NCBI GenBank assembly: GCA_003557485.1
Contig: PWOI01000180.1
Span: 1-36,928, forward strand
Length of the DNA stretch: 36,928 bases
Reading direction: 5' to 3'
From: Elusimicrobiota bacterium
Lineage (GTDB): Bacteria > CG03 > SLGR01 > PWQF01
This document shows, one piece after another, positions 4,046-21,630 of this stretch (position 1 is its first letter; each line of letters starts with the position of its first letter). A program made the translations under genes and the position numbers. Under the pieces are notes generated by a model, which did not search any database, was not told the DNA's origin, and was given only the letters and a program-made list of their open reading frames with translations.

Positions 4046-7000
4046 ATGAGTAACAGAAACAGCCAGGAAAAACAGTCCGAAATAAGAATTAAACTTTCTG
4101 CGAAGAAAGACGCGCGCCTACGGCTGGAGGAAGCCCTCAAAGATTTTAACCCTGAAAAAGACGGGGAAAAGATAAGCAAAATAAAATCAACTCTGAAAAA
4201 AATTGATGCAGAAATAACCGTGCTTGAAAAAAAGCTTGAGAATCCGGAACCCGCACAGAATTCTTCCGAAGGTGAAACCTCTTCCAGGTCAATTGAAGAA
4301 ATAGACCTTTCCAGAAAAAATCTTGACATAGAGGTAGGTGATATGAAAGAGCAGATTTCCCGCGAAAGAGTAATGTGGGAAAATAAACTCTCTGCTAAAC
4401 AGAGGGAAATAAATTCCCTGAAAGCCCGCATGGATCTCAGGCAGGCAAAACTGAGAGCCGAATACCAGATGAAAAAAGCCGAGCTTGAAAGAACCAGAGA
4501 TGAACTCGAGCAGAAGCTTAAAGGGGAATCGGAGGGAATTGAGAGTTTTAACCAGGAAAGAGAGAGATGGAAAACCCGTCTTTCTGAAAAACAGCAGATT
4601 ATTGACAGTCTTAAAGTTGAAATAGCTTCCGTTAAATCCCGTTACAATTCACAGACACAGCAAATAAAGGATGAATATTCACAGCGTATTGCAGAAATAG
4701 AGGAGTCAGAAAAACATATAACAGAACGCGGCAAACGTGAATCAGAAAGCCTCAAGTCCGAAATTTCAGCCCTGCAGAGAAAAATAATAGAACAGCAGAG
4801 CCTGCTGGCTGCCCGCCAGGCCTCTCTTGACAGGGTAAGGGACGAACACATAAGAGAGCTTGAAGGAGTCCGGGAAGGTCATTTTAACGAACAGGCCCGT
4901 TTGCATGAAGAAAAGAACTCCCTTGAAGCGGAATTGAAGTCAGAAATAGAAAGAAAAACATCTGATATTTCAGATCTGAAAAAACAGCAGGCCAGGCTTG
5001 AACAGCGCATTGAAGCTCAACGGGAAGAGTCAAGTGCTCAGCTAGCGCGCCTACGGGATAAGATGAAGAATAGCCTTTCCGAAAAAGAAAAGGAAAAAAC
5101 AGAATTGATAGAAAACCTCGGTGTTCTGAAGAAGCAGGCCGCCGAGGCGGAAAAAAATTATTCAATTTATCTGAACCGCCTAGAAGGTGAGAAAGAGATT
5201 TTAATAAACACGCATACAAGGGAGAAACAGGAGCTTGAAAGTAAAATAGAAGGACTTAAAGACAGCAAGGATACTCTTAATGCGGAACTTGAAAGAGATC
5301 GGGGAAAATTAACAAACGCTCTACATCAGAAAGAGCGCCAGCTGGCTGACCTGCAGGAGCAAAAGTCGCTTCAGGAAGCCAAGATGAGAGAGCAGATAGC
5401 CGGCCTTGAGAATAAGCTGCTCGAATTGCGCTCAGAAATGGAACACCGGGAAACTATAAATTCTCAAAAAGAAAAAGAGCTTGAAAAAGAAATAGGGCTC
5501 AAAGAAGAAGACCTGAAAAGGACGAATGCAGAAAACGTTGAAAGAATAAAGGCCCTGAAGGAAACTGTAAGCGAGCTTAAACTTAAAATAACGGGACTTG
5601 AATCCGAGAAGGAAAGTGTTCGGAGCGCCCTTGAGGACGAAATTGAAAAAATAGACAGGCAGTTGACAGTCAGGCTAACTGAAAAGGAAAAAGAAATTGA
5701 AGGCCTCAAGTCTGAAAAGGCAGAACTTAAGGCGCGTATTTCGTCTTCGGGTCAGGCGGGCCAGCTTGAGAAAAAAGCTCTTGAAGATACTATATGTGAA
5801 CGTGAAAAAGAAATAAACCGGTTACTATCTCTTATAGAAAAGGATGAAAAAAATATTGAGGACCTTAAACTTCAACTGAGGCAGAGAGATGAAAAAATAG
5901 AAGTCCTTAAGGATTCTGCATCCGCTTTTTCCGGGGAGCTTACAGTCCAGAAAGAGGCAAGACTCCGCAAGGAAGAGTCATTTTCAGAGATTCTCAGGGA
6001 AAAAGAAAAGGAGCGTGCTTTGCTTCTTGAAAACCTTAGGGAAAAAGAGTCCGGGATTGAAGAGCTTAAAGATAAGTCCGGCCGTATGCTGGGTGAAATA
6101 GAAGAATTAAAAAAATTAAACTCTGACTTGTCTGCCCGAATTGCTGCTGCTGATGAAGCCCGTCGGCAGGAAAAATCCGCATTTGAAAATACCGTAAGGG
6201 AAAGAGAGAGGGAAATAGACGGGCTTCTGGAAAGGTTGAGGGAAAGCGGGGATAAAGCCGCTGAACTCTCAAAAGAACTCAGGAGCAGGCAGGAAGACAT
6301 AAAAATTCTTCAATCAGAAAAATCTTCCCTTTCATCTTCCCTCTCGGCATCCAGGGCAGCTTCTGAATCCCGCATAAACGCTCTTTCAGACACCATAGCT
6401 GAAAAAGAAAAAGAAATTAATAAAATTCTGGGCCGCCTTAATGAAGAAAAAAAATCTTGTTCGGTTCTTTCCTCAGAACTTGAATCTGCCCGAAGAGAAC
6501 ACGAAAAAGAAATTGAAACAAGCCGAAGGAATATAGCAAAACTGTCCGATTCTTTTGCAGAAGCCCGAGAACGTTTTGCATTGGAGGAGGGCAGGCTCAA
6601 GGAGCGTATTGTTGCTCTTGAAAACGAAAATTTAATAGTTGAAAATACGTACTCGGAAAAACTTGTTCAGCTCCGGCTTGAGCTTGAAAACAGCGAGCGT
6701 GAGAAAGATTTACAGCGCCAGGAACATCAGCAGGAAAAAGAATCTATTCTTTCCAATTTGCGAGGGGCGGACGAGCGATATGAGAACCTTAAAAAGAATT
6801 TTGAATCAGCTTCGGAAAAAATAATTCGGCTTACGCAGAAGAACAGTCAACTGACAGACAATATGGAGGAAAAAGCGAACTACTATACTGCAAAAATTTC
6901 TTCTCTTGAAGAAGAAATATCAGAGTTAAATTGCTCTCATTCGCGTGAGGCTGCCCGTCTTTCGGGTAAAATAAAAGAAGCGGAAACCCTTGCCGAAGGC

Positions 7001-8752
7001 CTCCGAGAGCAGATAAATACGCTCAGTAAAAAATATGAAAAAGAAAAATCTCATTCGGAAAAAACAATAAATGCACTTTACGTGCAGGTCCGTGACGCGG
7101 AGGCCTCCCGTCTGCTTGAAGTTGAGAAAAAAGACGGGGAGATAAGCAACCTGCGGGAAGAAGTGAACCGTATAAAACTTTCCCACGTGAACGAACTGGC
7201 CGAAAAGGAAAAAACTATAAACGCACTGGAAGAAAAATACAGAACTGAAAAGATCAGTCTTGAATCAGAACTGCAGAATATTGAAAATATTAGTGAAAAA
7301 GAAATGGGCCGAATAAAGGAACAGAAAAATCAACTAGAAAAAGACCTGTCTGAACAGATCCGAATCAAACAGGAGGAGATTGACAGGCTTCTGGTTGAAC
7401 ATGAGAAAGAAATGGACAGCTTAAAGAGAAGGGAAAAAGAAACGGTAAAAATTTTAAATAAAGAAAACGAAGAAATAAGAAAACGATCCGACGGAGAAGT
7501 TTTTAACCTTAGGGAAGAAATAAATAAACTTAAAAGCAGCCTTGACCGGAAAACATGGGAGGTTAATAAAGTGAGAGAAGAACTGGAAAGCATATTAGAA
7601 GAATTTGAAGAGAGAGTAAATGCCCGCAAAAAAATATTAGAAGAAAAACTTGCTGCCAGAGACGATCATATAAATACCCTGAAAAAAGAAAACGAAGAAG
7701 CGAAAAAAGCTCTCATGGAAAGAATAGAGGAACTTAAGGACGCCTCCCGCCGGCTGCAGCAGCAGCTGGAAGAAGACCGCAAAAAATGGAGGCAGGAATA
7801 TGCTTCCAAAAAACAGGAATACAATATGCTTAAAGAGGAAAAAGACTCCCTGCAGAGAGAACTTAATCAAGAAATGTCTTCAAAGGAAACTCTCTGGCTT
7901 GAAGAAAAGAGGAATATTCTCAAGGAGCTGAATAAACTTAAAAGCCGCGTTGAAACAGAAATACCGGCTAAGCAGTCCGCTATTGAAGAGCTTGAACGCC
8001 GCCTACGGGACTCTTCTTCCCGGGTTGATGAACTTAAGAACGAATTAACGGGAAAAACCCGCTCTCTAGGAGATTCCCTTAAAAAACTTGAGGAAGAAAA
8101 CTTAAAGCTCAGGGCGTCCGTCACCGAAAAGGAATCACAGATTGCTGCCCGTGAGAAATCTTTTGAAAATGAAATATCCATATTAAAAGAAAAACTTGAG
8201 TCAAGAATTATTACTCTGCAGGAAGAACTGAAAAGCCTTAAGATGGAAAATTCCCAGTTAAAAGCAAGGCTTTCCGAGCATGCCAGTCTTTTTGCATACG
8301 AAACTGAAGAAAAAAGAAAAGAGATTTCAGAGATACGAAGCCGCCTTGAAAAAAATCTGGAAAAATTTCCATCAGGTGGTGAATATCCCGCGGAGAAGTC
8401 CGGATCAGCTGCCGGGCTTACTGAGAAGAAAAAGAAGAAAAAATCTGTAAAAGCCGCCGGCCCCGGAAAGAAATCCGTCAAGAAAAAATCTTCAGTTTCA
8501 AGTGCCGTGCCGAAAAAAAAGGAAACCCTTGAGATAAGGCAAAAGATTGATAAAATAAAAATAAATATAAAAGAACTTAAAAACAAAAATAAAAAAGATA
8601 TTAGTGATCTGGAAAAAAAATACCGGAAAGCTTCAGATTCTTCAAAAAAAACAGAACTGAGGGAAAAGCTTGTAAAAGCGGAGAACCAATGGAAGGAAGA
8701 AGAAAAAAAGCTGAAGGCGCAATTGTCAGATCTTAAAAAAAGAATGAAATAA
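4046..8752 (+). CDS. giant coiled-coil protein 1 (1568 residues)
   Basis: The protein has no signal peptide or transmembrane segment, so it should be cytoplasmic. The N-terminus (1-75) contains prolines. From 70 to 1306 I find no proline at all: about 1240 residues of Glu/Lys/Arg/Leu-rich heptads predicted as nearly continuous coiled coil. Over its full length such a rod would be about 0.23 micrometre (0.1485 nm per residue). Residues 511-845 form a gapless 67-residue tandem repeat. Six tryptophans (111, 175, 1171, 1248, 1284, 1549) mostly sit in a W-x3-L-x2-K type motif shared with the next protein. Around 1458-1492 is a lysine-rich low-complexity linker, then a short C-terminal coil. The coding frame is uninterrupted. 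BLAST-type hits to myosin tail, SMC or Golgi proteins would be compositional only, since there is no motor or ATPase head. A scaffold or cytoskeletal filament is my inference; function is unknown. Confidence 0.88.
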   Translation: MSNRNSQEKQSEIRIKLSAKKDARLRLEEALKDFNPEKDGEKISKIKSTLKKIDAEITVLEKKLENPEPAQNSSEGETSSRSIEEIDLSRKNLDIEVGDMKEQISRERVMWENKLSAKQREINSLKARMDLRQAKLRAEYQMKKAELERTRDELEQKLKGESEGIESFNQERERWKTRLSEKQQIIDSLKVEIASVKSRYNSQTQQIKDEYSQRIAEIEESEKHITERGKRESESLKSEISALQRKIIEQQSLLAARQASLDRVRDEHIRELEGVREGHFNEQARLHEEKNSLEAELKSEIERKTSDISDLKKQQARLEQRIEAQREESSAQLARLRDKMKNSLSEKEKEKTELIENLGVLKKQAAEAEKNYSIYLNRLEGEKEILINTHTREKQELESKIEGLKDSKDTLNAELERDRGKLTNALHQKERQLADLQEQKSLQEAKMREQIAGLENKLLELRSEMEHRETINSQKEKELEKEIGLKEEDLKRTNAENVERIKALKETVSELKLKITGLESEKESVRSALEDEIEKIDRQLTVRLTEKEKEIEGLKSEKAELKARISSSGQAGQLEKKALEDTICEREKEINRLLSLIEKDEKNIEDLKLQLRQRDEKIEVLKDSASAFSGELTVQKEARLRKEESFSEILREKEKERALLLENLREKESGIEELKDKSGRMLGEIEELKKLNSDLSARIAAADEARRQEKSAFENTVREREREIDGLLERLRESGDKAAELSKELRSRQEDIKILQSEKSSLSSSLSASRAASESRINALSDTIAEKEKEINKILGRLNEEKKSCSVLSSELESARREHEKEIETSRRNIAKLSDSFAEARERFALEEGRLKERIVALENENLIVENTYSEKLVQLRLELENSEREKDLQRQEHQQEKESILSNLRGADERYENLKKNFESASEKIIRLTQKNSQLTDNMEEKANYYTAKISSLEEEISELNCSHSREAARLSGKIKEAETLAEGLREQINTLSKKYEKEKSHSEKTINALYVQVRDAEASRLLEVEKKDGEISNLREEVNRIKLSHVNELAEKEKTINALEEKYRTEKISLESELQNIENISEKEMGRIKEQKNQLEKDLSEQIRIKQEEIDRLLVEHEKEMDSLKRREKETVKILNKENEEIRKRSDGEVFNLREEINKLKSSLDRKTWEVNKVREELESILEEFEERVNARKKILEEKLAARDDHINTLKKENEEAKKALMERIEELKDASRRLQQQLEEDRKKWRQEYASKKQEYNMLKEEKDSLQRELNQEMSSKETLWLEEKRNILKELNKLKSRVETEIPAKQSAIEELERRLRDSSSRVDELKNELTGKTRSLGDSLKKLEEENLKLRASVTEKESQIAAREKSFENEISILKEKLESRIITLQEELKSLKMENSQLKARLSEHASLFAYETEEKRKEISEIRSRLEKNLEKFPSGGEYPAEKSGSAAGLTEKKKKKKSVKAAGPGKKSVKKKSSVSSAVPKKKETLEIRQKIDKIKINIKELKNKNKKDISDLEKKYRKASDSSKKTELREKLVKAENQWKEEEKKLKAQLSDLKKRMK
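5576..6580 (+). repeat. 67-residue (201-base) protein tandem repeat in giant protein 1
   Basis: Five consecutive 201-base units begin at 5576, 5777, 5978, 6179 and 6380. They align without gaps at the protein level but are strongly diverged in DNA. In units 2-5, E8, E10, E12, L17 and L30 are invariant; position 16 is L or I, position 20 L or I and position 34 mostly L. Examples of the unit start are ALEDTICEREKEI, AFENTVREREREI and ALSDTIAEKEKEI. The second half of unit 1 matches unit 3 (EIEGLK...ARI against EIEELK...ARI), so the phase extends upstream. Unit 5 decays towards its end. Confidence 0.75.
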
Positions 8753-8754
8753 AA

Positions 8755-11700
8755 ATGTCACTGGAACAGTTAAAAAAACAGATAGAAGAACTTAAAACTC
8801 GCCTTCGCGACAGACAGGCTGAGTTTGACCGGAGTTTGCGTGAAAAAGAAGAAGAGAACGTAAGGATTCGCAGGGAGCACGAATTCAAAAAATCCGGTCT
8901 CGAGGATGAAATAGCGGCACTGAAAGAAAGGATTGCAAATTTAAGGGCTGACAGGGAAACCCGCCTCGCAGAAGCAAACAGGGATTTCTCATCAAAGATA
9001 TCTGAAAAGGAAGAAACAATAAACCGGCTTCTCAGAGAAAAGAGGGAGGAGGCCGAAAGCCTCCGGCTTCGAGCCGAAAAACAGCAGGCTGAATATGAGC
9101 AGAAGATTTCCTTCCTTGAATCTAAAAAAGAAGAAATTGAAACCTCTCTGAAAAAAGTATCATCCGACCTTAACGATTTAAGAAATAGGCTCGAAAAAGA
9201 AAAGAACGCCCGTATTTATGACAATCAAATAAACAAGGCCAACTTTGAAAAAGAAAAATCCCTTCTGCAGCAGGAATATACCGAAAAAGAAAACCGGGTT
9301 CAGGAAGAAGCGGAGACGCTAAGGGAGCAGCTGTCTTTTCTTAAGCAGAAGCTTGGAGAAAAGGAGGAACGGCTTGCCGGGGAACGCAGGATAAGGGAAT
9401 CAGAGATACGGTCCCTAAAGGAAAAAAGCCGCAGCCGCGAAACTGCTCTTGAAAATCGTCTCGCAGAATTGAATGAGCATAAAGAGAACCTAAAAAGCGG
9501 GCTGGAAAGAATAAAAAAGGAAAATGCCGGAATACTGTCTTCAAAAGAGGATGAAAACCGGATATTGCGCAGCCGCCTTACCCTTCTTGAAGAGGAAAAT
9601 GCCGAAAAGATAGCTTCCGCCAATGAAGAAATAGAAAATTTGAGAGGGGCTCTTGGCAGGCTCAGGGCTTCAACAGCCCGTGAAATAGATGAAAAGGAAC
9701 GTTCTGCTGCGCGCCGCGAGGAAGATCTTCGGGAGGAAATAAAGAAGCTTGATGTTGATAACAGGCGTCTTGAAAAAAATCTTTCCGAAACTCTGGATCT
9801 TCTGCAGTCCGAAAAGAAGAACTTTACCGAAAAATATCAGCGACTGACCCAGGATTTTCAGACAGAATCAGCCAGAAAAGATATAGCTCTGGAAGAGCTT
9901 CGCCAGGAATATACCGAACGGATAGACCAGCTTACTTCTGAACTTGAAACAACCCGCAGCGCCCTTGAAAAAGCCCTTGAAGAAAAAGAAAACCTGCTGG
10001 ACGATTTCAGAAAACGCCTGGCCGGCCGCCAGGATGAAATAGACCTCCTTAACCGCCGTCTCAGGCAGCTTAACTCCGAAAAAGAGGATCAGCTAAAAAG
10101 AAAAGAAGACGAATTTTTAAGGATGGAGGACGATTTAAAAACACGCCTGAACAATACAGCGGCCCGCCTTGAGGAGGAAAAATCTACTCTCAGGAAAAAA
10201 CTCTCTTCCCTAAAAGAAGACTATCACAGCCTGCAGCTGGATAAAGACAAGACAATCCAGTCCCTTATAGAGCAGCTTAATGCCAAAGAATCTGAAATGA
10301 ACAACTTCAGAAAGGCTGTTGTTGAAGAAGAAGCAATGTGGCAGGAGAGACTGAGCGAGGCCCGGCAGGACAGGGCTGTCACAGAACAGGAAAAAAACGA
10401 AAAAGAAGAAGAGCTTAAGAAACTTCGCCTGCGCCTGGAACAGGAAACCCGGGATATGGCCGAAACCCTGGAAAATAAACGCCAGCACTGGGAATGGCTC
10501 ATAGCTCAGAAACAGGCCGAGATAATCCGCCTCAAGGAAGAGCACGGAAGGGAAATGCTGGACCTTAAAAAAGAGTATGAAGACAAACAGGGAGAACTGG
10601 AGTTCTCACGTAAGGGAATGGAGAATGCGGTCAGGGAACTTTCCGATCGGATGGAAAAAGAAAGGGCCGGGCACTATGAATCCCTTAGAGAAAAAGATGA
10701 ACAGATTTCCCAGCTAAGGCAGCAGATATCTCAGAATGAAGAAAGAATAACCCGTCAGTACGAACAGGAAATAAGAGTTCTTAACCAGCGCCGTGACAAA
10801 CTTCTACGCCAGGTTGATGAGGCCCGGGCTAAAATGCAAGCAAGGGAAGAAGCCTGGGAGGAAAAAATACTGATTAAAAGTTCCGAGATCGAAGATGCCA
10901 GGCAGAAGATGAAGGACCGTGAGGAAGAACTTTACAATATATGGAAAGAAAAACAAAAAACTGCAAATGACAAAATTCTTCAGCTTACGCGAGAGATAGA
11001 GCGGGTTAAATCTTCCCGTGAGGGAGAAATAGAACAGCTTACGGATTCTCTCCGCAGGCAGGAGGAAATTAACCGTAGTTCGGGCGTTGAAAATATTAAA
11101 AGAGAAAAGGAAATAGAAGCTCAATTCAGGGAAAAACTTTTTATCCTTGAAAAAGAAAAAGATAATTACAGCAATGAATTGAAAGTTGTAAGGGATCAGC
11201 TCAATGCGGAAAGAATAAGGGCTTTTAAGCAGCTCAGGGAAAAGTCAGATGAAATAGAATCTGTCCGGGCCGAGGCGTCACGCAGCAGTGAAAACATCCG
11301 CGAAGCGTACAGTGATAAAATGGCGACTCTTCAGAGGCTGAAGGAAAGAGTTAAAGAACTTGAAGCCGAAAAGGAAGGGATAAAATCTTCCCTTGAAGCC
11401 GAACTTAAAAACCGGCAGGAAGAAAGAAACCGCCTTGCTGTTAAATACCGCGCCGACGAAGAGAGGATGCAGGAACAGGCAAGGGAACAGAAAGTTCAGT
11501 ATGAGGAAAGGATAAGAGAGCTTACCCACCAGTTGAACCTTCTTAAGGAAAGGGAGAAACAGCTTTCCGAGACTCTGGGCCGCACCGAAATTGATTCGCA
11601 GGAGGAAGTTGAAAAACTCCGCAGGGAGTTTTTAGAAAAAGAAAGACAGCTTATCGGTGAGTTTTCCGAAAAGGAAAAGGGGCTCATTGCAAGAAAAAAC

Positions 11701-13563
11701 CAGCTTGAGGAAGAACTTGCAAGAACTGAAGGGGACCTTCGCCGGGCCCGTGCCGACCTTCAGGAAAAAGAAACACAGGTTAGAACCCAGCTGAGCGGCG
11801 AGTACGAAGGGCGTATATATAAACTTAAACTTGACCAGGCCCTGGCCTCTTCAGAACTGGAGTGGGTAAAAGAGAAACTTGATCTGGAGAAGAAAAGGTG
11901 GCAGCAGATAATAAACGATGCCGAAGAAGAAAAAACAAAAATCAAAACCCGCTTCAGCGAAAGGTCAGAAGAACTTGAAAACAGGTATACGGAGCGGCTT
12001 GAAGAAGTTGAAATCCGTCGCCATCAGATTGAAATAGAAAGAAATTCATTTGTCGAAAAAATAAGCGAGCTCAGGCAGCAGCAGAGCGAAACAGTGGCCC
12101 GCCTTAACGGAGAGATGGATTCTCTCCGTCAGGAATACCAGAAACGTATAGCGGAGATAAAGTCCGGCTACATGGAAGCCCAAGCTGAATCTCTCCATAT
12201 ACGCCAAAAACTTGAAGCCCGTGTCAATGAACTTGAGAACGAACTGCGGTGCAGGGAGGATGCGGACGGAAGGCTCAGGTCCGAAGCCGAAGCTGCCCGA
12301 AATGAAATAGAAACCCTTAAAGACCGTCTTCATGCAGCCGGTTTGGAGTCATCTGAAAAAATACGGCAGGCCCGCGCTGAATCTGCCGAAAAACAGGAGA
12401 AAATTGAAAATGAATTCAAATCAGTTCTGTCCGGACTTGAACGGCAGATAGAAGACAAACGCTTTAAGCTGCATCGCAGCGAAGCGGAAATATCCAGGCT
12501 TAAAGAAGAACTTTCTGAAGAAAAGAAAAGAAAAACAGCCCGGGAGCAGGACATTAGTGGCCAGGTACAGGTACTTCAGGATAAAGAAAACCGGCTTACA
12601 GAACGTATTTCTCTCATTGAAGAAGAAGTCAAGCGCCAGGAAAAGAGAGCTGAATTTGCAGAGCTTCAGCTGCAGTCTTCGCGGCAGGATTTAGAAACTG
12701 AAAGACAGCGGTGGGAAAGCGAAGTTGAAAGAGTAAAAGAAACCGGCCGGATGCGGGGGAAAATTGTAGAGGATAATTTAAGGCAACTCAAAGAAACCAT
12801 AGAATCGATAAGAAAAGAGAAAGATTCCCTTCTGTCCGTAATTACCGGTTCGGAAGAAAAGGTCAAACATGCCCGGGAAGAACTGGCAAGGGAAAGAGAG
12901 AAAGCGGACAGGGAGATTCAGCAGAAACATCTCCAGATCGAAGCCCTTAACGAAAAAATAAATGAACAGGAACGTTCCTGGCGCCGCCGTCTTGAGGACC
13001 ATGAAAGCCAGTTGAATATGGAGTTCCGGAAAACACTGGACGAAAGGCAGCAGCAGTGGCAGGAGATGTACCAGTCCCGGCAGCAGGAACTTCTTGATTC
13101 CAGGAAGAGGGTTGAGGAGTCCCTGGAGGATCTTCGCCGTGAAAAACTGTCAAACGAAAGGATGTGGGACCTTCGCCTCAAAGAGAAGGAGGATGAGCTT
13201 AAGGAAATTCAGCTTCAGAAAGCCCAGAACGAATCCAGGTATTCTTCCCTTATAGGTAAATATAAGGAAGAGCTTAGCCGTCTGCGCTCCAGGTACAACA
13301 GACTTTCGGAGGATCTTTCGGATAGAGAAGAACTTAACAGGGAACTCAGGGCCAGGATGGCCCAGCGCGACATTCAGTGGAAGACTGCTTACCGCAATAA
13401 AGTTATAGAAAACAGCAAACTTTTATTTGAGATTCAGCAGAACAGGAAGAATTTCATAAGCAGATTTTTAAACCGTATAAGCGGCGCTGAAGAAAAAAAG
13501 AAAGAAGAGTTTGATCGCCGTATTGTAAAAGAAGTAAAAGAAAACCGTCATATCATCCAATGA
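8755..13563 (+). CDS. giant coiled-coil protein 2 (1602 residues)
   Basis: A second cytoplasmic rod starts two bases after the stop of the first. I find no proline in all 1602 residues and only one cysteine (in ELRCRED), so nearly the whole chain should be one coiled coil of about 0.24 micrometre. It has no globular head, signal peptide or membrane helix. Twelve tryptophans (529, 579, 581, 701, 730, 1037, 1049, 1320, 1409, 1435, 1471, 1542) cluster in the C-terminal two thirds. Many lie in a motif W-x3-[LIYV]-x2-[KR]-x3-[IL] (for example WEWLIAQKQAEI, WDLRLKEKEDEL). The same motif occurs in protein 1, which supports common origin. The last 60 residues are basic and end in a short amphipathic stretch (NFISRFLNRISG). 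The stop overlaps the next start as ATGA. The two rods and the following membrane protein are therefore probably made together; co-assembly is inferred. Confidence 0.88.
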   Translation: MSLEQLKKQIEELKTRLRDRQAEFDRSLREKEEENVRIRREHEFKKSGLEDEIAALKERIANLRADRETRLAEANRDFSSKISEKEETINRLLREKREEAESLRLRAEKQQAEYEQKISFLESKKEEIETSLKKVSSDLNDLRNRLEKEKNARIYDNQINKANFEKEKSLLQQEYTEKENRVQEEAETLREQLSFLKQKLGEKEERLAGERRIRESEIRSLKEKSRSRETALENRLAELNEHKENLKSGLERIKKENAGILSSKEDENRILRSRLTLLEEENAEKIASANEEIENLRGALGRLRASTAREIDEKERSAARREEDLREEIKKLDVDNRRLEKNLSETLDLLQSEKKNFTEKYQRLTQDFQTESARKDIALEELRQEYTERIDQLTSELETTRSALEKALEEKENLLDDFRKRLAGRQDEIDLLNRRLRQLNSEKEDQLKRKEDEFLRMEDDLKTRLNNTAARLEEEKSTLRKKLSSLKEDYHSLQLDKDKTIQSLIEQLNAKESEMNNFRKAVVEEEAMWQERLSEARQDRAVTEQEKNEKEEELKKLRLRLEQETRDMAETLENKRQHWEWLIAQKQAEIIRLKEEHGREMLDLKKEYEDKQGELEFSRKGMENAVRELSDRMEKERAGHYESLREKDEQISQLRQQISQNEERITRQYEQEIRVLNQRRDKLLRQVDEARAKMQAREEAWEEKILIKSSEIEDARQKMKDREEELYNIWKEKQKTANDKILQLTREIERVKSSREGEIEQLTDSLRRQEEINRSSGVENIKREKEIEAQFREKLFILEKEKDNYSNELKVVRDQLNAERIRAFKQLREKSDEIESVRAEASRSSENIREAYSDKMATLQRLKERVKELEAEKEGIKSSLEAELKNRQEERNRLAVKYRADEERMQEQAREQKVQYEERIRELTHQLNLLKEREKQLSETLGRTEIDSQEEVEKLRREFLEKERQLIGEFSEKEKGLIARKNQLEEELARTEGDLRRARADLQEKETQVRTQLSGEYEGRIYKLKLDQALASSELEWVKEKLDLEKKRWQQIINDAEEEKTKIKTRFSERSEELENRYTERLEEVEIRRHQIEIERNSFVEKISELRQQQSETVARLNGEMDSLRQEYQKRIAEIKSGYMEAQAESLHIRQKLEARVNELENELRCREDADGRLRSEAEAARNEIETLKDRLHAAGLESSEKIRQARAESAEKQEKIENEFKSVLSGLERQIEDKRFKLHRSEAEISRLKEELSEEKKRKTAREQDISGQVQVLQDKENRLTERISLIEEEVKRQEKRAEFAELQLQSSRQDLETERQRWESEVERVKETGRMRGKIVEDNLRQLKETIESIRKEKDSLLSVITGSEEKVKHAREELAREREKADREIQQKHLQIEALNEKINEQERSWRRRLEDHESQLNMEFRKTLDERQQQWQEMYQSRQQELLDSRKRVEESLEDLRREKLSNERMWDLRLKEKEDELKEIQLQKAQNESRYSSLIGKYKEELSRLRSRYNRLSEDLSDREELNRELRARMAQRDIQWKTAYRNKVIENSKLLFEIQQNRKNFISRFLNRISGAEEKKKEEFDRRIVKEVKENRHIIQ

Positions 13564-15746
13564 TAAAAAGAATACTTGGAGTTTTTATAAGGCCTGTCCA
13601 GACTATAAGGAATATCTCCAGGGATGAGCCGCTTTTCTCCGGCCTGCTGATTTTTGCCGCCGGCATACTTGTCGCCAATGCCGGGCTTGTGAGGAATTTT
13701 ATGATGGACGGAAGGGCGGGAATATTTAACATGTTTGCGCTGCTTTTCTTCTGGGCCGGAGGGACTGTAATAGTTTCACTTTTTATAACAGGAGTCCAGA
13801 AGCTGATAAATCCTATGACTTCTTCGGTTCTTGATACAGAGCGTTTCCGAAAACTTATAATCACGGAGTTTCATATAGCTGCGATTTTAATCCTTAGTCC
13901 TGTTTTAGGAATGGTGTTTTCGGCGGTAGTGACCTGGGTTATACTTATTGCATGGCTTATTATACTTACAATGGCGGCAGTTTCATCCCTGTGGAACGTA
14001 ACCGAAATTAAGGCTGCGCTTTCAGTAGTTATTTCAGTATTGATTGTTTTTGTCGGAGCGCGTTTGCTCGACCCGTCTAACGGTTATGTTTACACTTCCG
14101 AATTTGAGGAGTTCAGCAGGGAACTTTCGTCAGGCATTACGCCGCTGCATTACGGTATACTGGGGTTTGACGAAAAAAGCAATATAGAAAGAAACAGGAA
14201 AGCAATACTGAAGGCTGCCGCAAGCTATATAGATGAAAGCCCGGGTTCACGGGCCGTTCCCTTTGCTTTTGTTACAAAGGGCGCGATTTTGGAGGCAGAA
14301 GGCCGGAAAGACGAGGCAGCTTCAATTTACAGGGAAATTGTAACAGAGCACGAATATGTGCCCGCACCTGTTTATAAAACTGCAATGCTTCGCCTTTCGA
14401 TGCTAATCTCTCCCGGGGAATACAACCTTCTTCCGGTTGATGTTACTCCGGCAAGGTTTATGAGAGTTCTAAGGCTGTGGAGGCTTCCCGTTTATCTTTC
14501 TTACTACCGCGGCAATATGGAGAGAGTAGGCACAATAAAGGAAATGATAAACACGGAGGATATTGATTTAATAGAAAGCCGGATGGATATGATTGAGAGA
14601 AACTTCCGGGATACCGATTTTATGGATGATATTTTTTACTGGCTGGCCCGCCGCTATGAACGGGAGGGAGACGCTGCGTCAGCTATTTATTATTATGAAA
14701 AAACCTATCGCAGCCCATACTCTACGTTTCCTGACAGGACTGCGGTGGAGACTTCTATGGGCTACATAGCATCTCTTGCGGGCCTGGATGAAATACTTCT
14801 CGAGCAATACCGCGCACCTGAAGCTATGCTTTCCGCTGCCCGTATTTACCGGGAAAAGGGAGACCCGGATACTGCCCGGAGAATTATAAGTACTCTTCTG
14901 AGACGGTATTCCCTGCACGGGGCCTGTAGCCGGGCGCTTGAATTAAAAGCCGAGATTTATGAGGAAAAAGGGAATTTCAAAAAGGCGGCTTCTATATATG
15001 AAAGAATAATGGAGAATTATCCCATGTCCGACATAGTTCCCCGGGTTAAAGAAAAAAGAAATATTATTCTCCGAAACATAGGTAATGCTGATATTTTGTC
15101 CGGTTATATAGCCGGGCGGGCTCTGTGGAGGGAAGGCCGCTATACGGATGCATTATCGGTTTACAGAGCCATAATTGAGAACTATCCGGAAACTCTCCTG
15201 GCCGCGCATCTTCAGTACGGTATAGCTTCCTATTACAGGTCCGCGGGAAGATATATGCAGGCGCTCCGCGAGTTCAGGGCCGGTCACGAAAAGTTTGCCG
15301 GAACCGATTACGGTTTTGAAAGCGCTCTTATGGCAGCGGAGATTCTCTCTGAAAACATGAGACATTACCGGCAGGCTTCTGGCTGGCTTCTTGAAATATC
15401 AGAACAGTATTCTCCGGAATTCCGGTCTTCTCTTAGCGGTCTTTCACCTGCTTACCTAGTGTTGAAGTCTGCAGAAATATCCGCCTCTCAGCTTGGACAC
15501 TACCGCAAGGCAATAAGGAGTTATGATTCGATACTGGAAAGATATTCCGATCCCGAAGCTGAAGCGGAGGCTCTCTATAAAAAAGCCGTAATATATGAGG
15601 AAGTATATAGACTTTACTCAGACGCCGCCGAGACATATAGCCGGATAGTATCTGAATATCCATCCACTTCTTTCCGGGACGCCGCTTACTCTAGGCTTGA
15701 AGATATTTATGACAAAGGAGTAAAGCACCTCAACAGGTTTTACTGA
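13560..15746 (+). CDS. Yip1-like membrane domain plus TPR repeat protein
   Basis: A 728-residue two-part protein. Residues 1-175 resemble bacterial Yip1-domain proteins: a PVQTIRNISRDEP opening followed by about five membrane helices, ending near VVISVLIVFVGARLL. Residues 190-728 are a soluble solenoid of tetratricopeptide-like helix pairs, clearest at EEKGNFKKAASIYERIMENYP, EGRYTDALSVYRAIIENYP and SDAAETYSRIVSEYP. These recall the outer-membrane lipoprotein BamD and YbgF/CpoB type repeats. No signal peptide is seen, so the repeat part could face either side. It overlaps giant protein 2 by four bases and precedes the FtsE-like gene by four. Inference: a membrane anchor or adaptor linking the coiled-coil rods to the FtsEX/EnvC-like complex. 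Family membership of the TPR part is clear; the Yip1 label is moderate. Confidence 0.82.
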   Translation: MIKRILGVFIRPVQTIRNISRDEPLFSGLLIFAAGILVANAGLVRNFMMDGRAGIFNMFALLFFWAGGTVIVSLFITGVQKLINPMTSSVLDTERFRKLIITEFHIAAILILSPVLGMVFSAVVTWVILIAWLIILTMAAVSSLWNVTEIKAALSVVISVLIVFVGARLLDPSNGYVYTSEFEEFSRELSSGITPLHYGILGFDEKSNIERNRKAILKAAASYIDESPGSRAVPFAFVTKGAILEAEGRKDEAASIYREIVTEHEYVPAPVYKTAMLRLSMLISPGEYNLLPVDVTPARFMRVLRLWRLPVYLSYYRGNMERVGTIKEMINTEDIDLIESRMDMIERNFRDTDFMDDIFYWLARRYEREGDAASAIYYYEKTYRSPYSTFPDRTAVETSMGYIASLAGLDEILLEQYRAPEAMLSAARIYREKGDPDTARRIISTLLRRYSLHGACSRALELKAEIYEEKGNFKKAASIYERIMENYPMSDIVPRVKEKRNIILRNIGNADILSGYIAGRALWREGRYTDALSVYRAIIENYPETLLAAHLQYGIASYYRSAGRYMQALREFRAGHEKFAGTDYGFESALMAAEILSENMRHYRQASGWLLEISEQYSPEFRSSLSGLSPAYLVLKSAEISASQLGHYRKAIRSYDSILERYSDPEAEAEALYKKAVIYEEVYRLYSDAAETYSRIVSEYPSTSFRDAAYSRLEDIYDKGVKHLNRFY

Positions 15747-15750
15747 TAAA

Positions 15751-16410
15751 GTGCCCCCCCTGCTTAAAGCAAAGAACATATTCCTCCGGACTTCCGGAAA
15801 TCCCCGCCGGGAAATACTTAGAGATATAAACCTGGCGGTTGAGGAGGGGGTTATGGTTCTTCTCCGGGGGCCTTCGGGCAGTGGTAAAACTAAGCTTCTG
15901 CAGGCGCTTTCCGGCAGGCTTATGCCGTCCTCCGGTAAAGTTCTGTTCTGCGGTGAAGATATCTATGGACTTAAGGGGCACTCACTCAGAGACTTTCGCG
16001 CCCGCTGCGGTTTTGCGTTTGAGAAGGATACATTTATAAATTCCCTTTCTGTTTCCGGTAACCTTTCCGAAATAATAAGAGCGCTGGGCATTCCTTCAAA
16101 AGTTGCTTTTGACAGGATCATGCATGTTCTGAAGCTTTGTTCTCTTATTAATTCAAGGGATATTCTTCCGGAAAATCTTTCTTCCGGAGAAAAGAAACTC
16201 TTCAAGCTGGCTCTGGCGCTTGTAAAAGAACCTGAAGTTTTTCTTTTAGATTTTAACCTCTGCATGGATTCACTTTCCCTTGAGATAGCCCGTATTCTGA
16301 AGTCAATATCTTCAAGGGGCGGCGCTATTATGGTAACTGCAGCGGATTACGGACGCGGCTCTCTTCCCTGCGATATATGTCTGGATATTCAAAATGGCGA
16401 AATCAGGTAA
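15751..16410 (+). CDS. ftsE: FtsE-like ABC ATPase lacking hydrolysis residues
   Basis: In E. coli FtsE binds FtsX, and the complex activates septal amidases through EnvC. The 219-residue length fits. Walker A GPSGSGKTK (40-48) and signature LSSGE (143-147) are present, so nucleotide binding is plausible. Other residues are changed: the Q-loop glutamine is Glu91 (FAFEKDTF), the catalytic glutamate after the Walker B aspartate D167 is Phe168 (LLDFNL), the D-loop region is altered, and the switch histidine is Ala197 (MVTAADYG). Such changes would be expected to abolish or nearly abolish ATP hydrolysis. The start is GTG at 15751; an upstream extension meets TAA at 15721 with no other usual start. 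It overlaps ftsX by 17 bases. The identity rests on neighbours as well as sequence; a generic ABC ATPase is the alternative. Confidence 0.8.
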   Translation: MPPLLKAKNIFLRTSGNPRREILRDINLAVEEGVMVLLRGPSGSGKTKLLQALSGRLMPSSGKVLFCGEDIYGLKGHSLRDFRARCGFAFEKDTFINSLSVSGNLSEIIRALGIPSKVAFDRIMHVLKLCSLINSRDILPENLSSGEKKLFKLALALVKEPEVFLLDFNLCMDSLSLEIARILKSISSRGGAIMVTAADYGRGSLPCDICLDIQNGEIR

Positions 16411-17191
16411 AATTTTTTCATATATATTCATTTTCCTGGGAACTCTATTGATTTGGGCTGCAGTATCGGCCCGTCGTATTCCCGGAGCAGCGGAAAGCCT
16501 GATAGCGCGGGAAGTTGATGTTATAGTATATGTGAACGAGACAGTTTCTGCCGGAGATATAAATATTTTTATTGATAAGTTTCAGGAAATACCTCCTTTT
16601 TTCTTTAAGGATTTCAAAACCTCCCTTCAGGCTCTTGAAGAGCTTAAAAAAGACAGAGTGATCGCTGCCGAACTTGACTCAATAGACAGAGAGTTTTCTC
16701 CTCCTCATACCTTTATTCTCGGCATTCGCCGGGTTGATCCAGCCGCTATTTCATCAGCGTTTCCCCGAATAAACAGGATGGAAAACGTCGAGTTTGTAGA
16801 TATTCCGTTAGAGGAAATATTCGCAGCATCCTCTTTTCTTAATCGTTTGGGTCTGTTCAGTAATATTTTAACTCTTATCTTCTGCGCCGCCGCGATGCTC
16901 TTAATATACTTTGGGTCTCTTTTCTATTATTATTTCTTTTCTGAGATAATAGATGCGGTTTCTGACCTGGGCGCTCCGTTTATAAAGATGGTATCTCCAG
17001 GTGTCGTCAGGCAGTTTTTTGCCGGTATTTTATGCGCCCTCGCGGCCTCTTTTCTCTTCTACTTCGGTTCTTTGCTTTCAGCGGTTCCGGTTTTTAGTAT
17101 TCAGGCAGTTCTTGTTTCTGCATTACTTGCGGCAGCCCTGTCACCTTCTTTTTTTATTTTGATATGCGTAATTTCATTAAAAAAGCGATAA
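16394..17191 (+). CDS. ftsX: FtsX-like cell-division ABC transporter subunit
   Basis: The 265-residue integral membrane protein has the FtsX layout: one N-terminal helix (about 7-26), an extracytoplasmic domain (about 34-150), then three helices (about 153-180, 205-228, 234-260). The extracytoplasmic part begins with the typical REVDVIVYVNE strand and contains a fiskeqAl-like helix (FKTSLQALEELKKD). E. coli FtsX is 352 residues; the difference is mainly a longer cytoplasmic N-terminus there. In FtsX the external domain contacts EnvC or another hydrolase partner, and an envC-like gene follows directly, overlapping by 28 bases. FtsX is not a transporter in the usual sense but transmits a conformational signal. 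How that could be driven with a degenerate FtsE is a puzzle. Confidence 0.85.
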   Translation: MAKSGKIFSYIFIFLGTLLIWAAVSARRIPGAAESLIAREVDVIVYVNETVSAGDINIFIDKFQEIPPFFFKDFKTSLQALEELKKDRVIAAELDSIDREFSPPHTFILGIRRVDPAAISSAFPRINRMENVEFVDIPLEEIFAASSFLNRLGLFSNILTLIFCAAAMLLIYFGSLFYYYFFSEIIDAVSDLGAPFIKMVSPGVVRQFFAGILCALAASFLFYFGSLLSAVPVFSIQAVLVSALLAAALSPSFFILICVISLKKR

Positions 17192-18321
17192 TCTTTCTTG
17201 TTTTTCTTTTTTTGCTCATCACGGAGATCTATTCCGGAGATGAAATAAATACCCTCAGGCATCAGATATCAGGCCAGGAAGAGGAACTTCACTTTATTGA
17301 AAATGAGATAAGGAACCTGAGGTCAAGACTCCGCCTTCTCACAGAAAGAGAAAAAGAACTGACAGGAAAACTTAATGACCTGGACAGGCAGATAAATGTC
17401 CGGCAGGCGCGGCTTTCCCGGGTAAGGAGTGACATAGAGACTGTCAGCAGGAGAATAACCGAAGCCGAGGATGCCATAAGAAAAAAAGAGAGGCAGAAAA
17501 CCGGGTACTGCGACGACATACAATGTCTGGCCCGCGCTTACTATTACAGGGCCTCAAGAAATTCCCGTCGCAGCTGGGTTTCCCTTCTTTTTGGAAAAGA
17601 GAGCAGAGATGATTTTGTTCTTGCATATATGGTCCGCGAGCCGGTAAGTGAATATGTCAGGACAGAAGCTGAAATAAGCCGTACAATTCAGGAAACGGAG
17701 CAGCTCCGCATTAAGAACATTCAGCTTACGGGACTTAAAAAGGAACTCGTGGAAATTCAGGACGGGTTTATAGAAAAAAGGAAAGCCCAGCTTGATATTG
17801 TGAGAGAAATAAGGCAGCAGCAGTTAGCGCGGCAGCAGGAAATAAGACGTATGGAAGAAGAAAAACAAAACCTGAAAGAACTGATAGAGTCTTTACGCCA
17901 CAAGGCCGAGAGCCTTGAAGCCCTGAAGCAGCTGGCCGAAGATTTTGCCCGGGGGAAGGGGATGCTTGCCTGGCCGGTCAGTGGGGAAGTTGTTTCAAGG
18001 TTCGGCAGGCAGAGACATCCTACGCTCGATACCCATATTTATAATCGAGGTATAGAGATAGAAATACCCGGTACCGCAGAGGTAAAATCAGTTGCCGGAG
18101 GTGAGGTTGTCTTTGCGCAGGAGTTCAGAGGTAAAGGCAATATGGTTGTAATAGATCATGGAAATAATTATTATACTATATACGGAGGGCTTGACATAAT
18201 ACAGGTGCAGGTCGGAAATCTGACAGAACCCCTTGACAATTTAGGTACGGTATCAGGCAGGCTCTATTTTGAGCTTGGCCGCGAATCCGAACCCGAAGAC
18301 CCCCTCCTGTGGCTTGAATAA
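17164..18321 (+). CDS. envC: EnvC-like murein hydrolase activator (degenerate LytM)
   Basis: A periplasmic 385-residue protein. The signal peptide is about 1-24, a long coiled coil covers 28-260, and a C-terminal LytM/M23 fold starts at WPVSGEVVSRFG (270). The zinc ligands of active M23 peptidases are lost: the HxGxD motif reads N294-R-G-I-E298, and the HxH motif position is Gly342 (YTIYGGL), although H332 in DHGNNY remains. The final LHFEL motif reads LYFEL. This pattern matches EnvC, which is inactive itself and switches on amidases when FtsEX opens it. Gene order ftsE-ftsX-envC supports the role. The start is inside ftsX (28-base overlap); the signal peptide immediately following it supports this choice. 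The amidase partner is not in the window. Confidence 0.88.
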   Translation: MRNFIKKAIIFLVFLFLLITEIYSGDEINTLRHQISGQEEELHFIENEIRNLRSRLRLLTEREKELTGKLNDLDRQINVRQARLSRVRSDIETVSRRITEAEDAIRKKERQKTGYCDDIQCLARAYYYRASRNSRRSWVSLLFGKESRDDFVLAYMVREPVSEYVRTEAEISRTIQETEQLRIKNIQLTGLKKELVEIQDGFIEKRKAQLDIVREIRQQQLARQQEIRRMEEEKQNLKELIESLRHKAESLEALKQLAEDFARGKGMLAWPVSGEVVSRFGRQRHPTLDTHIYNRGIEIEIPGTAEVKSVAGGEVVFAQEFRGKGNMVVIDHGNNYYTIYGGLDIIQVQVGNLTEPLDNLGTVSGRLYFELGRESEPEDPLLWLE

Positions 18322-18348
18322 AGAAATATAGAATGGAGTTTAAATAAA

Positions 18349-19623
18349 ATGAAGAAAAATATAACAGTTTTCCTGACAGCTTTAATTATAAGCAGTGCGG
18401 TTATGGTTACCGTATCTGTCGTGCCTGTTTTTCTCCAGAGCCGCCCTGGCGCGGATAACTCGCCTCAACAGGATATTCAGGAGTATATGCGCCTTTTTTC
18501 CGACGCTTTTACCATTATACGGGACAACTATGTGGATGAAATGCCCGTTAAAGATATAATTTACGGCGCAATAGACGGCATGATAGGAGTCCTTGACGAT
18601 TATTCCCAGTTTATGGAGCCTAAAAGGGCGGACCGTATAAGGGAGGATTCCGAGGGAGAATTCGGGGGGCTCGGTATAAGAATAACAAAGGAAGGCGAAT
18701 ATATAAAAGTTATTACGCCGATGCCTGAAACTCCCGCCTACAGGAAAGGAATACTTCCCGGTGACCTTATTATTGAGATTGACGGGGAAGCCGCGCGCGG
18801 CATATCTATGGAAGATGCCGTAAACAAACTTCGGGGTCCGGAAGGTACGGAAGTAACGATCAGTATAAGACGAGAAGGGGAGGGAGAACTTATAAAATAT
18901 ACAATAGTGCGCGATACTATTGTCCCGCGTAAAGTATTCGGGAGGATGATAAATCCGGATATCGCGTATGTAAGGCTTACCGATTTTTCCGGCAACGCGC
19001 CTGAAATGTTCAAAGAAACCCTTCAGGATAAATTGAACGGGGGAGCCGCCTCATTTATACTTGATCTGAGAAATAATCCCGGCGGCCTTTTAAAAGCAGC
19101 TATAGAAATCTCTGAAATGTTTCTTTCCCGCGGAGATCTTGTGGTATATACCAAGGGAAGGGCTCCCAATCAGAGCCGGGAGTTTCATTCCCGTTCAAGG
19201 CCGGTCGCGCCGGAAATTCCGATGATAATACTTATAAACAGGGGCTCGGCCTCCGGATCGGAAATTGTAGCCGGTTCGCTGCAGGATCACGGCCGCGCCA
19301 TACTATTGGGGGAGAAAACCTTCGGAAAGGCGTCGGTCCAGTCAATAATAAACCTTGAGGACGGGTCTTCTCTGCGCCTTACGACTGCCGAATATTTTAC
19401 TCCCGGCGGAAATCCTATTCATGGAGAGGGTGTGTCTCCTGATATAGAAGTAAAACTTACAACCGAAGAAAAACGTCTTATGGCGGAAGAAAGATACGAA
19501 CTTTACACTCTGTCTGAAGAGGAGCGCGTTGAAAGAGAATCCGAAATAAGGGACCCTCAGCTTGATCGGGCTGTTGACATAATGAGAGCCCGCGCTATTT
19601 TTATGAGGGGCAATAAAGATTAA
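18349..19623 (+). CDS. ctpA: C-terminal processing peptidase, S41 family
   Basis: A secreted or membrane-anchored serine protease of 424 residues. The N-terminal hydrophobic segment spans about 5-30. A PDZ domain follows at about 100-185, with the carboxylate-binding FGGLGIRI loop and IIEIDGEAARGI. The S41 core is at about 190-385. The catalytic Ser302 lies in RGSASGSEIVAG and Lys327 in KTFGKASVQ, 25 residues apart, the same spacing as in E. coli Prc. Family members trim periplasmic proteins, including peptidoglycan hydrolases and their regulators, which fits the envC-like neighbour. It starts 27 bases after envC, preceded by GGAG. Its stop codon is embedded in the proposed start of the next gene. 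Confidence 0.95.
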   Translation: MKKNITVFLTALIISSAVMVTVSVVPVFLQSRPGADNSPQQDIQEYMRLFSDAFTIIRDNYVDEMPVKDIIYGAIDGMIGVLDDYSQFMEPKRADRIREDSEGEFGGLGIRITKEGEYIKVITPMPETPAYRKGILPGDLIIEIDGEAARGISMEDAVNKLRGPEGTEVTISIRREGEGELIKYTIVRDTIVPRKVFGRMINPDIAYVRLTDFSGNAPEMFKETLQDKLNGGAASFILDLRNNPGGLLKAAIEISEMFLSRGDLVVYTKGRAPNQSREFHSRSRPVAPEIPMIILINRGSASGSEIVAGSLQDHGRAILLGEKTFGKASVQSIINLEDGSSLRLTTAEYFTPGGNPIHGEGVSPDIEVKLTTEEKRLMAEERYELYTLSEEERVERESEIRDPQLDRAVDIMRARAIFMRGNKD

Positions 19624-20683
19624 ATCTCCGGGGATCCGCGCTTTTTTCAGCGCGGTAGTCATTCTAATAGCGTCAGTTTCGCTTCTTTACCTCTATTTAT
19701 CTCTCAGGGTACGTGACCTGTCGCCGGATGCCCGCGCCCTTAACAGTGAAATAAACTCGGTTCTTTTCGGCCACGGCTTAACCGATGCCGATATAACTCG
19801 CCAGTATCAGACACAGATGAAACGCGGCCGGTTTGAATGGATACAGTATACCAGGGAGATTTCTCTTCCTTCGGGAAAATACTCCGGTATTAAAGAGGAT
19901 ATACGCAGGGTATCCGGAACTCTGGAATTTGAAGAAACAGAGAGAACACCTCAAAAGGCCCGGATAAAAATATCTAAAAATAACGCCGTTCTTTCCGATA
20001 TAGTCTTTTCTCTTATTCCCGAAAAAGGCCTTCTTGCAATAGTGATAGATGACCTGGGTTACAGCCGCAACATAGAGCCGTTTACCTCTCTGGAAATACC
20101 CCTTACATATGCGGTTATTCCGGGATTGCAGTTTTCAGGCAGTATAACCGAAACGCTGCGTGCAGGAGGACATCATTATATAATCCATATGCCAATGGAG
20201 CCCCAAGACTCTTCCCTTATTGATAAGAATAATATGCTTCTGGTTTCAATGGATGAAGACAGCATACGCGCATCCCTTTCCGCTGCTCTCAGGAGCGTGC
20301 CGGGAGCCGGAGGTCTGAATAACCACATGGGTTCCAGGTTTACTTCTGACGCTGATGCCGTCAGGCGCCTTGTAACTATCTTAAAAGAGAAAAATCTTTT
20401 CCTGGTTGATTCCAGGACCTCAGGAGAGTCCGTCGCATATTCTACTGCCCGTGAAGCCGGTGTTCCGGCAGCTCAGAACAACTTTTTTATAGACAATCAG
20501 GCCGATTACGATTACATATACAAGCGTATGGAGGAGCTTACCCGTAAAGCCGCCGCAAGAGAATCAACTATTGCAATAGGACACATCCAGAACATAAATA
20601 CAGCCCGGGTACTGAAGGAGTTTATTCCGGAGATGAAAAAAGCCGGTATAATATTTGTTACAGTGGAAGAGTTGCTGAGATGA
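19619..20683 (+). CDS. divergent polysaccharide deacetylase, probable ATT start
   Basis: A YibQ-type (DUF610) putative carbohydrate deacetylase, commonly found next to envC and ctpA. From the first in-frame ATG (19817) the product would be 288 residues without any export signal. The frame stays open upstream to a stop at 19604, and that extension encodes a clear membrane anchor (AFFSAVVILIASVSLLYLYL). It has no ATG, GTG or TTG codon. ATT at 19619 sits eight bases after GAGGGG (19605-19610) and shares one base with the ctpA stop (ATTAA), so I choose it; the product has 354 residues. Catalytic-domain motifs, numbered from ATT, are IDDLGY (D144, D145), HMPMEP (H190) and NHMGS (H236). Periplasmic action on glycan, perhaps peptidoglycan, is inferred. 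The end overlaps tsaD by four bases. Confidence 0.82.
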   Translation: MKSPGIRAFFSAVVILIASVSLLYLYLSLRVRDLSPDARALNSEINSVLFGHGLTDADITRQYQTQMKRGRFEWIQYTREISLPSGKYSGIKEDIRRVSGTLEFEETERTPQKARIKISKNNAVLSDIVFSLIPEKGLLAIVIDDLGYSRNIEPFTSLEIPLTYAVIPGLQFSGSITETLRAGGHHYIIHMPMEPQDSSLIDKNNMLLVSMDEDSIRASLSAALRSVPGAGGLNNHMGSRFTSDADAVRRLVTILKEKNLFLVDSRTSGESVAYSTAREAGVPAAQNNFFIDNQADYDYIYKRMEELTRKAAARESTIAIGHIQNINTARVLKEFIPEMKKAGIIFVTVEELLR

Positions 20684-21630
20684 AGGTTCTGGGAATTGAA
20701 AGCACTTGCGACGAGACAGCCGTTGCCGTCGTAGACGGCACTGAAATTCTTTCTCATAAGATAGCCTCCCAGACTGAGATTCACGCGCTTTACGGGGGAG
20801 TTGTTCCGGAAATTGCTTCCCGGGAACACCTCAAAAGAATCAATATTCTTCTCCGGGACGCCCTTCTTGAATCCGGTGGCATAGATAGTATCGAGGGTAT
20901 AGCTGTGGCCGCCCGGCCCGGCCTTGAGGGCTCCATACTTGTAGGACTGACGGCAGCCCGTACACTTTCATTCCTGACGGGGCTCAGGCTGGAGGAGGTG
21001 GACCACCTGGAGGCCCATCTTTTTGCATGGCCGTTTCTTGAAAAACTTACGCCGCCGGGACTTGGCCTGGTTGTTTCGGGAGGGCATACCCGGCTGGTCT
21101 ATATTAAAAAATGGGGCGATTACGAGATAATATCCGATACCCGGGACGACGCCGCCGGTGAATGTTTTGATAAGGTGGCTTCAATGCTTCAGTTAAAATA
21201 TCCGGGAGGTCCGGAAATAGAAAAGGCTGCAAAAGAAGGAGACAGAAAAAGGTTTATTTTTCCCGTTGCAAATCTGAAAGGAAGCCTTGATTTTTCATAT
21301 AGCGGGCTTAAGACATCCGTTCTATATAAAATTAAATATGATTTTAATGGGAAACTGTCGGAAAAAGACAGAAAAGATATCGCTGCTTCATTCCAGGACG
21401 CCGCCTTCAAGCCTCTTGTAAAAAATGCGATTGATGGAGCGAAAAAAACAGATTCTGGATGGATTCTTGTATGCGGAGGGGTTGCCGCAAATTCCCGCCT
21501 CCGTGAAATGTTCCGGAAACCGGCAGAAATGGCGGGAATTAAAACGCTTTTTCCTCCGCTCAAACTCTGCACCGATAACGCTGCCACCGTTGCGGCCTGC
21601 GGTGAATTTTATTTAAAAAAAACTGATTAA
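20680..21630 (+). CDS. tsaD: tRNA threonylcarbamoyladenosine transferase TsaD
   Basis: TsaD, with TsaB and TsaE, transfers the threonylcarbamoyl group to A37 of ANN-decoding tRNAs in the cytoplasm. The 316-residue protein starts with the standard VLGIESTCDETAVAVV. It carries the iron-binding HLEAH motif (H109, H113), the nucleotide-binding LVVSGGHTRLV, the DDAAGECFDKVA stretch and the later CGGVAANSRLR. The last of these contains the ASNH/N-type contact region. It is slightly shorter than E. coli TsaD (337). It is the last gene of the long + strand run, coupled to the deacetylase by ATGA. Its last four bases overlap the end of the reverse-strand gene, and no terminator is visible between them. 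Confidence 0.96.
   Translation: MKVLGIESTCDETAVAVVDGTEILSHKIASQTEIHALYGGVVPEIASREHLKRINILLRDALLESGGIDSIEGIAVAARPGLEGSILVGLTAARTLSFLTGLRLEEVDHLEAHLFAWPFLEKLTPPGLGLVVSGGHTRLVYIKKWGDYEIISDTRDDAAGECFDKVASMLQLKYPGGPEIEKAAKEGDRKRFIFPVANLKGSLDFSYSGLKTSVLYKIKYDFNGKLSEKDRKDIAASFQDAAFKPLVKNAIDGAKKTDSGWILVCGGVAANSRLREMFRKPAEMAGIKTLFPPLKLCTDNAATVAACGEFYLKKTD

Follow-up and report, generated by a model that had tools for sequence, protein, structure and literature searches.

Two giant coiled-coil rods encoded at the head of an FtsEX-EnvC operon with a degenerate FtsE

FtsEX is understood to work through an ATPase cycle: FtsE binds and hydrolyses ATP and thereby drives EnvC and the amidases. The locus described here, carried on a 36,928-nucleotide stretch of DNA that was analysed as a whole (hereafter the window), resembles the FtsEX-EnvC-amidase system of Escherichia coli and Pseudomonas aeruginosa, taken together with SddA (YibQ), in the fold of its FtsX, in a coiled-coil EnvC with a degenerate LytM domain, in the presence of an SddA-type deacetylase within the run and in the location of the amidase elsewhere in the genome. 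It differs from that system in an FtsE without the catalytic glutamate and the H-loop histidine, and in an operon headed by two giant rods and a Yip1-TPR protein. Extra cytoplasmic cofactors of FtsEX, one of them coiled-coil, have a precedent in SweD and SweC of the Bacillus subtilis FtsEX-CwlO system, which we compared by description; these are 13-16 kDa proteins with a single transmembrane segment, in contrast to the rods, and their FtsE remains an ATPase.

All genes of the locus lie on the + strand. The first rod gene (rod1, 4046..8752), delimited as an open reading frame, encodes a coiled coil of 1568 aa and is separated by 2 bp from the second (rod2, 8755..13563), which encodes a coiled coil of 1602 aa; both open reading frames fall where the initial annotation had placed two adjacent giant rod genes of these lengths. 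They are followed by genes for a 728-aa Yip1-like protein with TPR repeats (13560..15746), an FtsE-like ABC ATPase (15751..16410), FtsX (16394..17191), an EnvC-like activator (17164..18321), the S41 C-terminal processing peptidase CtpA, assigned by profile matches (18349..19623), an SddA/YibQ-like divergent polysaccharide deacetylase (PF04748; 19655..20683) and TsaD (20680..21630), the final gene of the conserved run. The gene content previously given for this range, from the Yip1-TPR protein to the deacetylase, was recovered, with the amendment that the last open reading frame (20680-21630) is tsaD. The tight packing also described for it extends from rod1 to ctpA, where the spacings after the rod pair are -4, 4, -17, -28 and 27 bp, and breaks down at the deacetylase, whose first ATG (19817) leaves a gap of 193 bp. 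This start is too late, because homology extends upstream at least to 19655. In the interval 19619-19817, 5' of that ATG, the deacetylase frame stays open with no ATG, GTG or TTG seen, and a non-standard start (an ATT overlapping the ctpA stop codon) is possible. The YibQ type corresponds in E. coli to SddA, a septal deacetylase of denuded strands that is commonly linked to envC (PMC12440217).

Several features were observed on either side of the operon. Upstream, between a TonB receptor gene and tRNA-Asp, the hairpin CGGCTTTGCAGCTG occurs three times at a 45-bp spacing (3508-3611). Downstream, a tmRNA gene (22481-22831) precedes a cluster at 22968-27508 comprising pilM, pilN, pilO, one unassigned gene and a secretin gene with an AMIN domain, and the segment at 28183-30688, which adjoins Wzz, LicD and sulfotransferase genes and encodes a PEP mutase carrying a cytidylyltransferase domain and then TPP-enzyme domains, is likely a phosphonate pathway.

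The proline pattern reported earlier was reproduced: rod1 carries prolines at residues 36, 67 and 69 and then only at 1307, 1442, 1448, 1473 and 1489, and rod2 carries none. Conserved blocks of rod1 comprise an N-terminal segment at residues ~15-40, which includes P36, and residues ~1162-1250, and the protein ends in a Pro/Lys-rich break (~1440-1490) followed by a C-terminal helix. The hydrophobic stripe of the window's pair has a period of 3.576 residues in rod1 and 3.581 in rod2, with a power of 68 and 107, respectively, where a shuffled 56-residue window averages ~2.5. The hydrophobic spectrum peaks at 3.565-3.581 residues in every rod of all lineages, corresponding to neither a heptad nor a hendecad, and the stripe is coherent across hundreds of residues, the phase of rod2 being nearly constant over ~1200 residues. 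Slices of 320 residues gave 3.54-3.59 for rod1 and 3.58-3.59 for rod2, with a single end slice of the G005 rod2 at 3.52, whereas the E. coli MukB and SbcC arms and the EnvC coil used for comparison gave 3.38-3.50. Given that a free alpha-helix has 3.63 residues per turn (PMC9858780), a period of 3.58 would imply a very slight left-handed supercoil, and the rods would be nearly straight because their stripe repeats at this interval. A long myosin-like charge repeat was sought in the rods, and no outstanding peak emerged.

Between families of the window's order the rods share 31-36% identity over their full length, and dN/dS is 0.17 for rod1 and 0.10 for rod2. The rods are thus under purifying selection and, given also their coherent stripe, are more than a product of chance. 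Their high E/K/R content would suit single alpha-helices (ER/K-type spacers) or low-complexity drift, but the coherence of the stripe, a core face that is ~40-50% Leu/Ile, the strong purifying selection and the full-length conservation make such a reading very hard to credit. We regard it as similarly far-fetched that the rods are SMC/Rad50-like chromosome proteins: SMC coiled-coil models do match them weakly and far below the cut-off (E values of 8e-12 and 5e-11 for rod1 and 2.6e-4 for rod2), but these matches are confined to coiled-coil stretches, no Pfam ATPase head was found in the rods, and their 3.58 period lies outside the range of the MukB and SbcC arms. Identities as SMC/Rad50, DivIVA or phage-family proteins were all pursued with profile searches, which gave no real match.

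Among known cytoskeletal proteins, crescentin and other intermediate-filament-like proteins resemble the rods as long cytoplasmic coiled coils with probable membrane association. These proteins are defined by a heptad rod with a local stutter (PMC10873595), whereas the rods described here are much longer, encoded in tandem and built on a continuous 3.58 period, with no heptad rod and stutter. Scy, FilP and DivIVA offer a further likeness, being large coiled-coil proteins that organise growth or division, but Scy and FilP have Ala-rich cores with a hendecad repeat, in contrast to the Leu/Ile core and 3.58 period of the rods, and a DivIVA-type N-terminal domain, sought with Pfam, is absent from both rods. 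Rod1 belongs to no Pfam family, and rod2 has no Pfam match, no solved relative in the PDB and no match among PHROG phage families. A search of the open-access literature, which covers the field incompletely, returned no description of such rods, and as far as these searches show they constitute an undescribed coiled-coil family.

Short basic amphipathic segments were identified near the C-termini of the second rods: RKNFISRFLNRI in the window (residues 1564-1575; 13444..13479, +), RKGVVRKLLGAF in G005, KKGILKKIFG in four genomes of a sister family (f5) and RKGFFSRLFGK in a member of family f6. These resemble the C-terminus of E. coli MinD (KKGFLKRLFGG; NC_000913.3), and the core of the sister-family segment is nearly identical to that of the MinD membrane-targeting sequence (KGILKKIF vs KGFLKRLF), although in MinD the tail is carried by a ParA-type ATPase and here by a rod of 1190-1650 aa. 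The likeness was first noted in members of the order and in G008 and G014, and then recurred in G009, G011 and G013. A pattern describing the tail, defined post hoc from these sequences, has exactly one match in each of the 11 second rods, no more than 38 residues from the end, and none in 10 first rods, where shuffling leads to an expectation of ~3 matches over all rods combined.

The initial annotation had proposed that the rods are anchored by the TPR protein. The Yip1 assignment of this protein has a Pfam score of 21.9 bits against a cut-off of 28.6, and its structural model contains five membrane helices, in a domain at residues ~25-170, followed by a well-predicted TPR solenoid at ~180-727 (mean pLDDT 80). 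Positive-inside reasoning on the sequence indicates that the N-terminus is probably cytoplasmic and the TPR part periplasmic. In G005 both the rods and the transmembrane domain are kept and the TPR part is absent. A role for the TPR part as cytoplasmic anchor is therefore unlikely, and the MinD-like tail of rod2 is, judging from its sequence, a better candidate.

The division module downstream of the rods departs from the canonical one in its ATPase. In the window's FtsE, Walker A is intact, the Walker-B glutamate is replaced by phenylalanine, the H-loop histidine by alanine, and the signature motif is altered. Across the five order members, FtsE has an intact or near-intact Walker A, reads D-F-N or D-L-N instead of D-E-P in Walker B and lacks the H-loop histidine; in five outgroup loci, FtsE keeps both DEP and ATH. 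The H-loop histidine is also lost in f5, where G009 and G015 retain DEP in Walker B, and in two rod-free outgroup loci (G130 and G110), so that FtsE degeneration may extend beyond the rods. The dN/dS of FtsE (0.15) is close to that of a BtuD-like neighbour (0.17). An FtsE constrained like an ordinary ABC ATPase but devoid of its catalytic residues is probably a subunit that is used and does not hydrolyse ATP. No FtsE at all, and hence no canonical second copy, scored above the curated cut-off in the 16 genomes of the phylum, a strict threshold with which a divergent second copy would be compatible. A published degenerate FtsE was likewise absent from the open-access literature we could search, whose coverage is incomplete. 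In E. coli, expression of FtsE D162N blocks septal synthesis, while in one mutant background a separation defect is still suppressed by interaction with EnvC in the absence of hydrolysis (PMC7343993), results in view of which a non-hydrolysing FtsEX is not absurd.

FtsX matches TIGR00439 below the cut-off (E 1.9e-6), and its structural model (mean pLDDT 69) adopts the FtsX fold with a periplasmic domain, the best match being the FtsX chain of P. aeruginosa FtsEX/EnvC (8i6o, E 9.2e-8). EnvC consists of a signal segment, a coiled coil and a LytM domain without metal ligands, a loss that is expected for an activator. Amidase_3 proteins were found in 12 of the 16 genomes of the phylum, including one in G000, and FtsZ in 15 of them; MreB is also present.

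To place the locus in context, we compared it across the same 16 genomes. The order rods-Yip1-ftsE-ftsX-envC-ctpA-sddA-tsaD is kept in four genomes from three families of the window's order (G000, G001, G002 and G005), and part of the operon is found, as far as the contig ends, in G004 and G007. A rod profile search recovered these orthologues, each in single copy, and otherwise only fragments in G007 and G006. The G006 fragment opens its contig and comprises just 46 residues of rod1 before a stop and unrelated sequence (L081:1-160), and from its sequence would be a truncation or misassembly. The Yip1 transmembrane domain occurs once in each of six genomes of the order and nowhere else in the phylum.

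The tandem rod pair is present in all three lineages of the phylum that were sampled, and its linkage to ftsEX in two. In f5, the run ftsE-ftsX-envC-ctpA-sddA-tsaD is preceded by genes for a nucleoside phosphorylase (PNP), a DUF5693 protein and a pyruvyl-transferase, and the rods, proline-poor coiled coils of ~1154-1160 and 1203-1211 aa, are encoded divergently beyond them. First-rod matches were obtained in seven of seven f5 genomes and second-rod matches in six, the contig of G015 stopping inside the first rod. The G011 first rod is split between two open frames (L141:5444-8907), possibly by a frameshift or a sequencing error. The phosphorylase, DUF5693 and pyruvyl-transferase genes, the last of them CsaB-like, form the start of the f5 ftsEX operon (L052:5397-8957), a gene content that suggests a tie to surface polysaccharide. 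In profile comparisons of rod1 with rod2, and of the order's rods with those of the sister lineages, cross scores reached ~25 bits at most, no clear gain on the 23 bits of a reversed-sequence control; a block-shuffle control was discarded, as it contained fragments of the model's own sequences. The case for common ancestry of the two rod sets is built on their size, period and tail and on the tandem order, not on alignment.

In six f5 genomes (G008, G010, G011, G012, G014 and G015) the rods lie next to the ftsEX operon or to genes upstream of it, in some cases across joined contig ends. The conserved synteny sought as a check on the original proposal is therefore found in the order and in most of f5, while in G009 (f5) the rods lie with other genes on a contig away from ftsEX, in G013 (f6) two tandem rods, of 1163 and 1250 aa, are flanked by electron-transfer flavoprotein (ETF) genes and a pseudopilin gene, and the Yip1 adaptor is missing outside the order. 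Linkage of the rods to ftsEX is accordingly not universal, given these two genomes, and the outcome that the initial annotation had named as refuting its proposal is in part what was observed. None of 18 deacetylase loci from other phyla, several of which keep ftsE-X-envC-ctpA-sddA, has a giant coiled coil nearby; this survey serves as a neighbourhood control and not as a census, because flank lengths differ and some loci lack ftsE.

Two further explanations bear on this distribution. The rods could be a cytoskeleton or tether of a general kind, membrane-bound and coiled-coil in the manner of crescentin or golgins, that serves shape or polarity and shares an envelope neighbourhood with ftsEX but exerts no physical control over FtsX-EnvC. 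The persistence of the pair away from ftsEX in G009 and G013, the divergent orientation of the f5 rods with the PNP, DUF5693 and pyruvyl-transferase genes interposed before ftsE, and the presence of both MreB and FtsZ are in keeping with such a scaffold, which we consider a real possibility, though clearly less than probable. Against it, two lineages show ftsEX linkage, each in an arrangement of its own, and in the window's order rods and ftsEX form one tight operon. We favour rods coupled to FtsX-EnvC over a general scaffold that neighbours ftsEX. In sister lineages, the second rod gene faces a convergent T2SSG-type pseudopilin gene with a conserved VLWME end (L136:910-1632; L057:850-1533; L142:1762-2433). 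With this arrangement in most of the sister-family genomes checked and in G013, and with pilM, pilN, pilO and the secretin gene downstream in the window, the rods might instead scaffold a type IV pilus or type II secretion-like machine; this is improbable, as no pseudopilin gene stands beside the rods in the window's order, a 410-aa gene intervenes in G008, and the whole division operon and the tmRNA gene separate the pil genes from the rods.

Our preferred reading, advanced tentatively and not far short of an even balance, is that the rods form a membrane-tethered coiled-coil pair that, in the window's order, is coupled to FtsX-EnvC in place of ATP hydrolysis. The rods would be a phylum-specific cytoplasmic pair, each ~230 nm long if one continuous helix (~170-185 nm in the sister families), assembling as coiled coils in the cell, and rod2 would be tethered to the inner membrane through its putative MinD-type amphipathic tail. 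Co-expressed in the window's order, as the operon would have it, with the Yip1-like protein and the FtsEX-EnvC-CtpA-SddA module, the pair may place FtsX at a membrane site or keep it there and, by rod-Yip1-FtsX contact, set the timing of amidase activation by EnvC in division or cell separation. With an FtsE that has kept Walker A and lost its hydrolysis residues, the rods would take over from the ATPase cycle by mechanical or positional control. Weighing against this coupling are the incomplete linkage, the restriction of the Yip1 protein to the order, the lack of a clear profile match between the order's rods and those of the sister lineages, and the imperfect correspondence between FtsE degeneration and the rods. 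Of the interpretation first offered for this locus, a TPR-anchored filament scaffold that positions or triggers murein hydrolysis, the operon conservation is supported, the TPR anchor is unlikely and the linkage is not universal; it had overlooked the loss of the FtsE catalytic residues, and filament formation and a trigger role may be entertained as conjecture. That the two giant near-straight rods, one of them MinD-tailed, represent a new class of cytoskeletal tether driving or gating FtsX-EnvC amidase activation instead of FtsE hydrolysis is a stronger claim, and one we think rather unlikely.

The rods combine an unusually uniform period with a putative membrane tail resembling that of MinD. 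Retaining FtsX, EnvC and an amidase, with a degenerate FtsE and with rods heading the operon, this lineage offers a natural test of the purpose of the ATPase cycle and of whether murein cutting can be triggered by force or position alone.
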